Shown: positions 3,008 through 6,380 of the stretch, one piece after another | Layout of the letters: each line of letters starts with the position of its first letter | How positions within the stretch are numbered: the first letter of the stretch is position 1 | NCBI GenBank assembly: GCA_027063545.1 | Contig: JAMORN010000154.1 | Coordinates: 1-6,380, forward strand | Origin: JAMORN01 sp027063545 [NCBI: bacterium] | Lineage (GTDB): Bacteria; JAMORN01 | Length of the DNA stretch: 6,380 nt | Direction: 5' to 3' | Translations under genes and position numbers: made by a program | Notes under the pieces: model-generated | The model's input: only the letters and a program-made list of their open reading frames with translations | What the model was told of the DNA's origin: nothing | The model's database searches: none

Positions 3008-3024
3008 TTGGCATATTTATTGCA
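3008..3024 (+). promoter_or_regulatory. Sigma-54 (RpoN) -24/-12 promoter for the hook gene cluster
   Basis: The 17 bases TTGGCATATTTATTGCA align without gaps to the sigma-54 consensus YTGGCACGRNNNTTGCW. All six bases of the -24 core YTGGCA and all five of the -12 core TTGCW match; the three mismatches are in the CGR positions. The invariant GG (3010-3011) and GC (3022-3023) are separated by exactly ten bases, the spacing sigma-54 requires. Transcription should start near 3034-3036, giving a leader of about 45 bases before the ATG at 3080. Sigma-54 promoters need an AAA+ activator bound upstream, so the cluster should be switched on by a flagellar or other response regulator rather than expressed constitutively. 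No sigma-28-like or good sigma-70-like site competes with it in this gap. Confidence 0.8.
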
Positions 3025-3079
3025 TTCCCATTTTTAATGTAAATACTGAAAAAATTTTTGAGAAAGGAGATGTAAAATT

Positions 3080-3691
3080 ATGGATGAAAGGAAATTAATA
3101 ATTATTATAATGATCGTATTTATGATTTCTCAGTTTATTATATTTGGAACCTTATTTTTTGCAGGATTATTTAGATTTGAAGTTTCAACGCCGGAAAGTA
3201 GTAAGATTTTTGATGTACACACTGTATTAGAAAATAAACGAGAAGTACGATTGGATTCAATATTAGCCAAAAATTATTATATGTATGAAGCATTAAAGAG
3301 ACAACAAAAGTTATTAGAAGCTAAACAGGAAAGTTTAATTGTATATGAGAATAGAATAAAGATGTTAGAAAAGGAGATTCAAAAAAGAAAAGCTGAGATT
3401 GAGAAGACAAAAAAAGAAATAGAGAATTTGGTTCTTGAGAATAAAAAATTAGAAGCCAAAAAAGAGACTATTCTAGATAAAAAGTATAAAAGATTGGCTA
3501 AAATATACGCTAATATAGAACCCCAGCAAGCAGCTAGATATTTGGAAGCTATGGATAGTAAAACAGCAATAGAAATTTTAATAAGGATGAATCCAGAGAA
3601 TGCAGGCGCTATAATGAAGTACTTAAAGGATACAAAAAAGGGTATAGAAATTACTAAAGCTGCCTTAAAAGGGTTAATAAAAAAGAATTAA
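3080..3691 (+). CDS. Membrane-anchored coiled-coil flagellar protein, MotE/YlxF/FlbB-like
   Basis: This 203-residue protein has three parts. Residues 6-31 form one transmembrane helix with a very short N-terminus (MDERK) on the likely cytoplasmic side. A long charged helix (about 66-132, rich in Glu, Lys and Leu) is probably a coiled coil. A compact C-terminal domain follows at about 137-187, with IEPQQAARYLEAMDSKTAIEILIRM at its centre, which resembles the MgtE N-terminal/FliG-like helical repeat. This arrangement and the position immediately before fliK match YlxF of Bacillus, FlbB of Borrelia and MotE-type proteins, which act at the stator or motor base. A periplasmic placement of the coiled coil is the usual picture for a single N-terminal anchor. 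The ATG is chosen because AAAGGAG at 3063-3069 sits ten bases upstream and the membrane segment follows at once. It is first in the sigma-54-driven unit. The exact role is inferred from context. Confidence 0.8.
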   Translation: MDERKLIIIIMIVFMISQFIIFGTLFFAGLFRFEVSTPESSKIFDVHTVLENKREVRLDSILAKNYYMYEALKRQQKLLEAKQESLIVYENRIKMLEKEIQKRKAEIEKTKKEIENLVLENKKLEAKKETILDKKYKRLAKIYANIEPQQAARYLEAMDSKTAIEILIRMNPENAGAIMKYLKDTKKGIEITKAALKGLIKKN

Positions 3692-3708: not shown

Positions 3709-5535
3709 ATGCTAAACTCTACTAATATCACCTCTTTAAATAAAATAGAGAAAATTCAGATGAACGATTTGAATTTTAATAAGAATAATGATTTAAAAGA
3801 AGAAAATTTTTCCTCTTTTGAAAGTTTATTAGATTTACTGTTGTCTAAAACTTTTAACAGTACAATACAGACCCAATCTATAGATAATTCTGCAAATACA
3901 TTAAATAACTCTATAAAAAATAGTTTTTTAGATAGATTAAAATACGATAATAGCCGTGTAATGAAAAATATAGATCAAAGAGAATATGTAAAAATAGAAA
4001 AGAAGTCTTTAGATAAAGAAAGTAAAGCTATTAATAGGAAAGATAATAAAATAGAAAATAAAATAGAAGAAATAAAAGACTCAGAAGATTTGAAAAAAAC
4101 AAAAAGAAAGATTCCAAAAAGAAATTATAAAGTCTACACCCAAGAATTATTTTATTTAAATATTAGCCTTATCCAAACAATAGTAACAGATTTGAATAAT
4201 AAATTAGATGTAAATGAATTAAGTAAGTCTAAATTTTCAGATCCTATTATAGAAAATAGCGAGACTTTAAATAACTTTATAAATAAACTTTCAAATATTT
4301 TAAATAATTTTTTTAAGTTAGAAGATTATACAAATAAAGATGTTCCAAAAGAAAATATATTATCAGTATTAAAAACAATAAAACAAGAACTTCTTTTATT
4401 AAAAGAGAATGAAATATTTAAAAATTTAGTTCAATCAAATGAATTCCAACATAAATTAGATTATAATCTTAAACTTCTTGATAGTCTTATAAATTTTTTT
4501 GCTTCTAAGGATAATAATGAATTAGAAAATAATGAGGATTTGCATTTTAATAAATTAGTAGAACTACTAAATAAAGATTTAAAAGATATTAATAAAAATT
4601 TTACGTCTACTAATAAATTAAATAATGAAAACCAGACTTCTGAAAAACAATATATTTCTCAAAAGATCTTCGTAGAATTAAAAAAATTAAGTGTAGAATT
4701 TAAAGAAATAGAAATAAAGTTAAATAATGAGCCTAAAATAAGTAAAGATGCTTTATCTTCTTTAAAGAATATGTTGTCCCAATTGGAAAATAATGTTTAT
4801 TTGAAAGAAAATAAGGTATCATTAAATAATGATTTTAACCAAAATTCTATCCAAATTGATCAGTCTTTAGGTTTTAATATTAAAGAAGGTAAAAAAACAT
4901 CTAATATAATAAATACTTTTTTTAATAAAGATGGTAAAGGAAAAATTTTCCCTACAATAAAAGAGGATAATAATCAATCAATAGTTTCTAATCATCAAAA
5001 TGGAAAAAATTTTTCTGAAATAGCCAATTCTGGGAAAATTTTAAACATAGAAGAGGTAAAAGAACCAGAAAATCTAATTAAAACAGAAAAAAGTACTAAA
5101 AATTATGGTAAAAATATAATAGAACAAATAAAATCAGAATTTAAGAAATATACCAATATTCATAAAGTTAAACATATAACAGTTAAATTAGAACCTAAAA
5201 CTCTAGGAAAGTTAGATATTGAGTTAGTTTTCAAAGACAAAGATTTAAAAATGCATATTAAAGTTTTAAATCCTGAAACTCATGCTATATTAAAGGAAAA
5301 TATTCATCATTTAAAGGAGACTTTGAATAATATTGGCATAAATATTGTAAATATAGATTTAGAGATGAAAGAGAATAATGAAGAGAACTTCAAAGAAGCT
5401 TTAAATAAAGAGTTTGGTTCTTTTAAAGACAATAGCAAAGAAAAAGAAAATTTAGATTATAAAGAAGATAGTAATGGAAATAAAAGATTTTTAAAGAGAA
5501 AATATGGTAACTCAAGATATGAGATAATAATATAA
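3709..5535 (+). CDS. fliK: Flagellar hook-length control protein FliK
   Basis: FliK is secreted through the flagellar export apparatus, measures the growing hook and switches the export gate from hook to filament substrates. The identifying part is the C-terminal Flg_hook domain at about 472-558. It includes VKLEPKTLGKLDIELVFKD (492-510), the family's LxPxxLGxlxVxl signature, followed by LKENIHHLKETLNNIGINIVNIDLEM with the usual Leu and Gly spacing. A charged tail of about 50 residues follows. The first 470 residues are low-complexity, very rich in Asn, Lys, Ser, Glu and Leu, with no cysteine that I can see and few prolines. This part is expected to be poorly conserved and to act as the ruler and secretion region. 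At 608 residues it is longer than the roughly 400-500 of well-studied FliKs. AAAAGGAG at 3695-3702 with a six-base spacer supports the ATG. It lies 17 bases after the MotE-like gene and 14 before flgD, in the standard order. Confidence 0.88.
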   Translation: MLNSTNITSLNKIEKIQMNDLNFNKNNDLKEENFSSFESLLDLLLSKTFNSTIQTQSIDNSANTLNNSIKNSFLDRLKYDNSRVMKNIDQREYVKIEKKSLDKESKAINRKDNKIENKIEEIKDSEDLKKTKRKIPKRNYKVYTQELFYLNISLIQTIVTDLNNKLDVNELSKSKFSDPIIENSETLNNFINKLSNILNNFFKLEDYTNKDVPKENILSVLKTIKQELLLLKENEIFKNLVQSNEFQHKLDYNLKLLDSLINFFASKDNNELENNEDLHFNKLVELLNKDLKDINKNFTSTNKLNNENQTSEKQYISQKIFVELKKLSVEFKEIEIKLNNEPKISKDALSSLKNMLSQLENNVYLKENKVSLNNDFNQNSIQIDQSLGFNIKEGKKTSNIINTFFNKDGKGKIFPTIKEDNNQSIVSNHQNGKNFSEIANSGKILNIEEVKEPENLIKTEKSTKNYGKNIIEQIKSEFKKYTNIHKVKHITVKLEPKTLGKLDIELVFKDKDLKMHIKVLNPETHAILKENIHHLKETLNNIGINIVNIDLEMKENNEENFKEALNKEFGSFKDNSKEKENLDYKEDSNGNKRFLKRKYGNSRYEIII

Positions 5536-5549
5536 AAAGGAGTATAAAA

Positions 5550-6287
5550 ATGGAAGTAAAACCATTAAACGTAGAAGAGTTAATGCAAAGCTTTCAAAAT
5601 AAAGATAATAATAAAACAGAAAGAAATGTTTCCAAAGATCCTCTTAAGTGGGATAAGACGGAGTTTTTAAAACTTTTAATTATGCAATTAAAATATCAAA
5701 ATCCTATGAATCCTGTTGATAATGAAGGCTTTGTTGAGCAATTATCTCAACTTACAGCATTGGAAACTTCACAAAATACATATAATTTATTAAAAGAAAT
5801 GAAAGATAGTTTTGATAATATAGAAAGTACTTTTAAAAATTCTGCCGAGAGCTTAAAACAGGCTTCTGTATTAAACATTATAGGAAAAAAAGCAGTTGTT
5901 TTAGGGGATAGATTTAGTGTTGAAGATACAGAAAATCCTGTAGAAATCAATTTTAAATTTAGTGAACCTAATGAATTGCCTGATAGATTTAGAATGGAAA
6001 TATATGATAATGCAGGTAACCTAATTAATTACTATACGATTTTGAGTTCTACATTAAAAGATGGAGAAGGTAGTTTTAATTGGGATTTAAGAGATAATAA
6101 TGGAATATTAGTACCTAAAGGCGAATATAAGGTTATTTTTAAAGATTTTGATGGTAATATAATAAACGATGGCGGAATATTGACTGAAGGTAGTGTAGAT
6201 GGGGTAAAATTTTTGAAAGAAGGTCAAGTATCATTAATTATAAATGGAAATGTATATAATTTTGAAGACATTGAAGAAATAAAATAA
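5550..6287 (+). CDS. flgD: Flagellar hook assembly (hook cap) protein FlgD
   Basis: FlgD is exported and forms the temporary cap under which FlgE subunits polymerise into the hook. The N-terminal family signature is clear at 38-72: EFLKLLIMQLKYQNPMNP is followed closely by FVEQLSQLTALE. The middle (about 108-140) fits the small beta domain, beginning with IIGKKAVVLGD. The Ig-like domain follows at about 140-215, with the typical FNWDLRDNNGILVPKGEYKV at 176-195. The segment 78-105 is helical. At 245 residues the length is normal for the family. The ATG has AAGGAG at 5537-5542, seven bases upstream. No membrane segment or Sec signal is present, as expected for a type III export substrate. It sits between fliK and flgE, the standard hook order, and should be co-transcribed with both. 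Confidence 0.95.
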   Translation: MEVKPLNVEELMQSFQNKDNNKTERNVSKDPLKWDKTEFLKLLIMQLKYQNPMNPVDNEGFVEQLSQLTALETSQNTYNLLKEMKDSFDNIESTFKNSAESLKQASVLNIIGKKAVVLGDRFSVEDTENPVEINFKFSEPNELPDRFRMEIYDNAGNLINYYTILSSTLKDGEGSFNWDLRDNNGILVPKGEYKVIFKDFDGNIINDGGILTEGSVDGVKFLKEGQVSLIINGNVYNFEDIEEIK

Positions 6288-6318: not shown

Positions 6319-6380
6319 ATGCTTCGCTCAATGTATGCAAGTGTATCAGGTTTAAGAAATCACCAAGTAAGATTAGATAT
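6319..6380 (+). CDS. flgE: Flagellar hook protein FlgE, first 20 codons (runs off the right edge)
   Basis: The visible peptide MLRSMYASVSGLRNHQVRLD is the conserved N-terminal D0 helix of rod and hook proteins. FlgE polymerises into the hook, the universal joint between the basal body and the filament. The same opening motif occurs in FlgF and FlgG, so sequence alone does not separate them. The place immediately after flgD, 31 bases downstream, makes FlgE by far the most likely. The start is fixed by the ribosome-binding site six bases upstream. The gene continues beyond the window, so length and integrity cannot be judged. Confidence 0.88.
   Translation, partial: MLRSMYASVSGLRNHQVRLD

Follow-up and report, generated by a model that had tools for sequence, protein, structure and literature searches.

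A 17-base element in the gap before the hook genes motE-fliK-flgD-flgE is very probably a real sigma-54 switch for these genes, because it also precedes other flagellar operons and because the same genome encodes the matching sigma factor and activators. The window, by which we mean the whole stretch of 6,380 nucleotides analysed, is an entire contig (C154) of a 1.57 Mb genome in 355 contigs that is 82.7% complete. The lineage is very isolated, with no second genome of its phylum in the comparison set. The window contains the following features.

1740 to 2960, + strand: argJ, the non-flagellar upstream neighbour on the same strand (PF01960, E 2.6e-148)
3008 to 3024, + strand: putative sigma-54 -24/-12 promoter element TTGGCATATTTATTGCA, from the pattern match and an identical 17-mer upstream of flgB
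3035 to 3079, + strand: predicted 45-nt 5' leader, from the sigma-54 spacing rule
3061 to 3070, + strand: ribosome binding site AGAAAGGAGA, read from the sequence
3080 to 3691, + strand: MotE/YlxF-like gene, the first of the operon, from position and weak family matches
3709 to 5535, + strand: fliK (hook-length control), PF02120 (Flg_hook) E 3.1e-15, over the Pfam cut-off
5550 to 6287, + strand: flgD (hook cap), PF03963 E 1.5e-14, over the Pfam cut-off, and PF13860 E 7.7e-8
6319 to 6380, + strand: beginning of a flgE-like hook gene that runs off the contig, identified by reading the sequence only

The gene series behind the element agrees with the motE/ylxF-fliK-flgD-flgE order first proposed for it: FliK and FlgD pass their Pfam cut-offs, while motE is weak and flgE was read by eye. 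The first product, which has one strongly hydrophobic, N-terminal stretch, is tentatively called MotE/YlxF-like from its position and from matches below the family cut-offs (MgtE_N, 22.8 bits against 25.9; NCBIfam FlbB, 26.3 bits against 110). The gap between argJ and this series measures 119 bp, and the element lies within it, on the claimed + strand and just before the series, 47 bases from the argJ stop codon to its start and 56 from its last base to the MotE-like ATG at 3080. At sigma-54 promoters the transcript starts about 12 bases after the GC, which predicts the leader given above. No stable structure was found in this leader (fold z-score 0.61, 3036-3095).

The element has its GG at 3010-3011 and its GC at 3022-3023 with ten bases between, and TTGGCATATTTATTGCA matches the pattern TTGGCAYRNNNNTTGCW with 0 mismatches. 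It has the form of a sigma-54 promoter (-24 GG, -12 GC, TTGGCAY-N5-TTGCW). The preliminary description had called it a near-consensus sigma-54 promoter; the sigma-54 match holds, but "near" understates it, as the TTGGCAY form is matched in full. The general form is given as TGGCACN5-7TTGCT in PMC12316311, and 11 of the 12 fixed positions of the consensus used in a Clostridiales study, TTGGCATNNNNNTTGCT as printed in PMC6615313, are matched by the element. An order-2 Markov model built from 126,744 bases of the same genome predicts, over both strands, 0.001 occurrences of TTGGCAYRNNNNTTGCW in the window and 0.25 in the genome. About 7 GG-N10-GC cores are expected in the window, so this core by itself is uninformative. 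A stricter window pattern with TGGCACR, one base too long, was rejected; it gave four chance-like matches.

Across the whole genome, TTGGCAY-N5-TTGCW was found 5 times against 0.52 expected under the Markov model. One of the five sites lies inside a gene and the other four precede a same-strand gene at distances of 38-110; three of these four are flagellar.

Sigma-54 element before motE, in the window, distance 56
Sigma-54 element before flgB, on contig C85, distance 45, identical 17-mer
Sigma-54 element before flgJ-flgN-flgK, on contig C134, distance 38

The identical 17-mer occurs twice in the genome, each time before flagellar genes. A scan of other flagellar operons for the same element, suggested at the outset, thus places it at the head of flgB and flgJ-flgN-flgK, so that several rod and hook operons (flgB, flgJ-flgN-flgK and motE-fliK-flgD) share it. 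The fourth site, also a full match, stands at 1106-1122 of C123 (L076), at distance 110 before an M23 peptidase gene, and overlaps the 3' end of the upstream ORF by 12 bases. The peptidase possibly serves cell-wall remodelling for flagella.

What carries the argument is the extended motif together with where it lies, because correctly spaced halves without the extension show no excess over chance (TGGC-N7-TTGCW, 9 observed against 8.46 expected). With the halves one base further apart (TGGC-N8-TTGCW), 12 matches were obtained, 12/12 inside ORFs of at least 70 aa. The TGGCAY continuation is present in 7/9 matches at the right spacing and in 0/12 of this control. Placement was counted on mechanical ORFs, not called genes: four of the nine right-spaced matches lie inside genes, or five under the 70-aa ORF limit, at which the site on C281 falls within a 74-aa ORF treated as spurious; at a 90-aa limit this site is intergenic. 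The intergenic shares of 5/9 and 4/9 against 0/12 give p = 0.006 and 0.021 in Fisher tests. A reversed-pattern control returned 0 matches but was not counted in favour: reversing the letters creates CG, possibly rare in such an AT-rich genome.

Absence of rpoN had been named beforehand as grounds for giving up the claim. The claim survived: the genome that holds the element also encodes a complete RpoN, with three Pfam domains, the RpoN box ARRTVAKYR and a match of E 3.7e-79 to solved sigma-54. By eye, the neighbours of rpoN resemble an LptB-type ATPase gene, an hpf-like gene and a MlaD-like gene. A search for AAA+ activators, likewise suggested in advance, found PF00158 matches at seven places, four of them proteins with a complete domain and GAFTGA; one of the four, on C176, runs into a contig edge at its N-terminal end. 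The other three places hold one RtcR-like protein, truncated within the domain where its contig stops, and two weaker matches.

Which of these activators would serve the hook genes? One candidate lies on C143 (L079, 3209-6089) in a tight row of genes for a 229-aa protein, the activator, fliW and csrA. Its build is of the FleQ/FlrA type (AAA+, degenerate receiver, Fis-type HTH): the N-terminus retains a Response_reg remnant (E 0.029) whose phospho-acceptor position is an Asn and whose acidic pocket is mostly gone, and HTH_8 is matched at 7.5e-15. The 229-aa protein gave no match in Pfam or NCBIfam and no convincing one in the PDB; the name CheX, considered for it, is unsupported by all three. 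FliW was matched in 48 of 145 genomes, this one included, and in the 30 FliW loci scanned, all from other genomes, no GAFTGA activator stands beside fliW within the flanks examined (0/30). The second candidate, on C149, is an NtrC-type regulator with an intact receiver and GAFTGA that follows a PAS histidine kinase; the kinase has no evident membrane helix (maximum 19-residue hydropathy 0.9), and no flagellar neighbour was recognised on this contig. In both, the AAA+ domain resembles those of solved FleQ and of flagellar regulatory proteins A and C (E 1e-62 or lower), a similarity that is family-wide, as an NtrC-family protein scores best in each case. Neither reaches the curated cut-off of 750 of NCBIfam FlgR (NF049963), with 386.9 bits for C149 and 317.7 for C143.

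The neighbours fliW and csrA suggest that the C143 activator is the one best linked to flagella, and for that reason we give it better odds than C149. Our proposal, a tentative one that we hold as possible rather than probable, is that this FleQ/FlrA-like dead-receiver activator, co-transcribed with fliW-csrA, drives one sigma-54 class of rod, hook and hook-associated operons. If true, FliW-CsrA flagellin homeostasis and hook-class transcription would be wired together in one regulatory operon. A serious alternative, which we rate at somewhat short of an even chance and which is compatible with a working sigma-54 promoter before motE, is that the class is driven by the C149 kinase and regulator as a pair of the FlgS/FlgR or FlrB/FlrC type. 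The intact receiver, the GAFTGA motif, the kinase gene directly upstream with its product lacking an evident membrane helix, and the FlgR score all speak for the pair. Against it, all 25 of the 25 NCBIfam matches listed fall under their cut-offs, AtoC (457.1 bits) outscores FlgR, and flagellar neighbours were recognised beside the C143 activator rather than here. A search for activator sites across the promoters identified no usable shared site: the best shared 12-mer is no better than those of shuffles; the best shared 16-mer beats 12/12 shuffles, but it is a T-rich tract beside the sigma-54 site.

The two other flagellar copies of the element extend the picture beyond the hook operon. On C85 the element is followed by the first 81 residues of flgB (NCBIfam FlgB 56.2 bits, cut-off 59.05), and C156 carries flgC-fliE-fliF-fliG-fliH-fliI-fliJ, with FliJ under its cut-off, preceded by what looks like the last part of flgB. 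The two contigs do not overlap, and that they are neighbours is deduced from the way the flgB pieces fit; the flgB copy probably heads flgB...fliJ. In the operon on C134, FlgN, FlgK and a transglycosylase domain pass Pfam cut-offs, and FlgJ is named tentatively, from the transglycosylase domain, the neighbouring genes and a weak match to NCBIfam FlgJ. Here the element begins in the T-tail of an intrinsic terminator, 38 bases from the ATG. A search for FlgD in a wider set of genome contigs returned four loci, all distant.

In the Bacillus fla/che operon the order is flgB...fliJ-ylxF-fliK-flgD. The same gene order is kept within each half here; the difference is a break between fliJ and motE, and the two halves carry identical sigma-54 elements. 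Among 14 foreign MotE loci, with genes read by eye, fliJ or a gene of its size stands immediately before motE in 7: fliI-fliJ-motE in five (L032, L033, L037, L038, L039) and a fliJ-sized gene directly before motE in two (L034, L041). L042 has a fliJ-like gene and one more gene before motE, and six were unreadable (L031, L035, L036, L040, L043, L044). In the 300 bases upstream of motE, no GG/GC-core site within 3 mismatches was found at any of the 13 foreign loci scanned, all but L035, which has no covering frame. Since argJ precedes motE here, the block is cut between fliJ and motE, and both parts carry the same element; the earlier suggestion that a new transcription unit begins at motE gains support.

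Is the element the main promoter? We consider it highly likely that it works as the sigma-54 promoter of motE-fliK-flgD-flgE. The idea that it is real and auxiliary, with another promoter giving the main transcription and sigma-54 only modulating it, strikes us as unlikely. It has a precedent in C. jejuni flgE/CJnc230, described in PMC11187230, where an RpoN-dependent flagellar gene is followed by a second, RpoD-type promoter. The flgB copy, too, has a sigma-70-like site (10/12) on its upstream side; chance alone would give 2.9 over that stretch, and the site may mark an additional promoter at flgB. On the other side, a sigma-70-like scan from argJ to motE found no site in the gap, its only + strand match (3084-3111) lying inside motE, and the only sigma-70-like site of flgJ (4515-4542 of L077) lies ahead of the terminator that runs into the element. 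Still less credible, and in our judgement very improbable, is a chance match with the hook operon read from argJ or a sigma-70 promoter: a scan found no intrinsic terminator between argJ and the element, so that read-through is conceivable, and the gap is T-rich; yet a full pattern expected 0.25 times genome-wide recurs as an identical 17-mer, both times before flagellar genes, and the scan of the gap found no sigma-70-like site.

The flagellin genes carry a different signal. Two were identified, one of them truncated at a contig end, and each is preceded by a sigma-28-like site (1 and 2 mismatches of 12); no sigma-54 site with at most 1 mismatch was detected on the flagellin contigs. The pattern TAAA-N15-NCCGATAW has 5 matches in the genome, two of which precede the two flagellin genes, and 6 when read backwards, so that the count itself is meaningless. 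No FliA exceeded the cut-off in the 82.7%-complete genome, the best match being RpoD-like, which decides nothing because about a sixth of the genome is missing. Because the flagellins have sigma-28-like sites instead, the layout resembles the Campylobacter/Vibrio hierarchy. One row on C151 (L094, 2286-6155) runs from a sigma-28-like site through a flagellin, an unknown gene and a FliK-like gene (Flg_hook E 0.0038, under cut-off) to a lone FlhB C-terminal domain. A further sigma-28-like site, on C57 (L099, 1171-1527), lies at distance 34 before a 98-aa ORF; by eye this ORF was considered as FlgM, a name with no Pfam or NCBIfam support.

How might these parts work together? RpoN-RNA polymerase would form a closed complex on the element, to be opened by an AAA+ activator, presumably a flagellar one; the transcript, starting near 3035, would carry motE-fliK-flgD-flgE. 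Because the same element heads flgB (with flgC...fliJ, by the two-contig fit) and flgJ-flgN-flgK, we infer a single sigma-54 class that takes in the genes for rod, switch, hook and hook-associated proteins, and the flagellins, with their sigma-28-like sites, would make up a late class. The usual fliJ-motE junction would have been broken, leaving each half its own copy of the element. The preliminary description had foreseen an intermediate, activator-dependent sigma-54 hook class in this lineage, and the rpoN gene, the activators and the repeated element before flagellar operons all favour it.

The flagellar cascade of Vibrio and Pseudomonas uses FlrA/FleQ plus FlrBC/FleSR. The genome studied here is similar in having one degenerate-receiver activator (C143, Asn) and one kinase/regulator pair with an intact receiver (C149); it differs in that the AAA+ similarity is family-wide and the C143 activator is joined to fliW-csrA. 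Campylobacter and Helicobacter, where RpoN acts with FlgS/FlgR, have sigma-54 for rod and hook genes, sigma-28 for the major flagellin and CsrA-FliW, as described in PMC11187230, a scheme that the classes predicted here resemble; here the lineage is distant, the operon is motE-fliK-flgD-flgE, FliA was not found in an incomplete genome and the activator is only a candidate. The mechanism is not new, because sigma-54 flagellar control is well known and the three steps are already found in C. jejuni (PMC11187230). What is new is the lineage, the splitting of the operon into two parts with an element on each, and the joining of an activator gene to fliW-csrA in one operon. Sigma-54 hook control had been credited to gamma- and epsilonproteobacteria and Caulobacter. 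That much is known, but the list is too short: PMC12316311 predicts sigma-54 flagellar control in classes of Thermodesulfobacteriota, Planctomycetota, Verrucomicrobiota and Deferribacterota, and names hook and capping genes in several classes of proteobacteria and desulfobacteria. That sigma-54 is linked to flagella and lipopolysaccharide across phyla was argued in 2011 (PMC3162934). The Clostridiales sigma-54 promoters of PMC6615313 are alike in consensus (TTGGCATNNNNNTTGCT); the main text of that study has "flagell" once, in its background section, and "motility" not at all. A literature search on FliW, RpoN enhancer-binding proteins and flagella surfaced only work on Pseudomonas syringae RsmA, and among the matches listed for a ylxF-fliK-flgD operon with sigma54, none appears, from its entry, to describe such an arrangement.

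These observations would extend the sigma-54/sigma-28 flagellar hierarchy, seen mostly in Pseudomonadota and Campylobacterota, to a lineage that stands alone in its phylum here. They bear on whether hook-class sigma-54 control is old or was repeatedly acquired, and they illustrate one possible layout of such a class, a split operon both parts of which bear the promoter element.

Relaxing the pattern to one mismatch adds 20 further sites, 15 of them inside ORFs and five intergenic. One, on C281 (L078, 1-4739), precedes a ParA-like gene at distance 31; the four proteins encoded after that gene have no Pfam match, and one of them is cut by the contig end. Another, at 4980-4996 of C165 (L097), is at distance 45 before an Hsp20 gene, and a third, at 969-985 of C76 (L055), is at distance 55 before the gene of a secreted protein that looks porin-like by eye.
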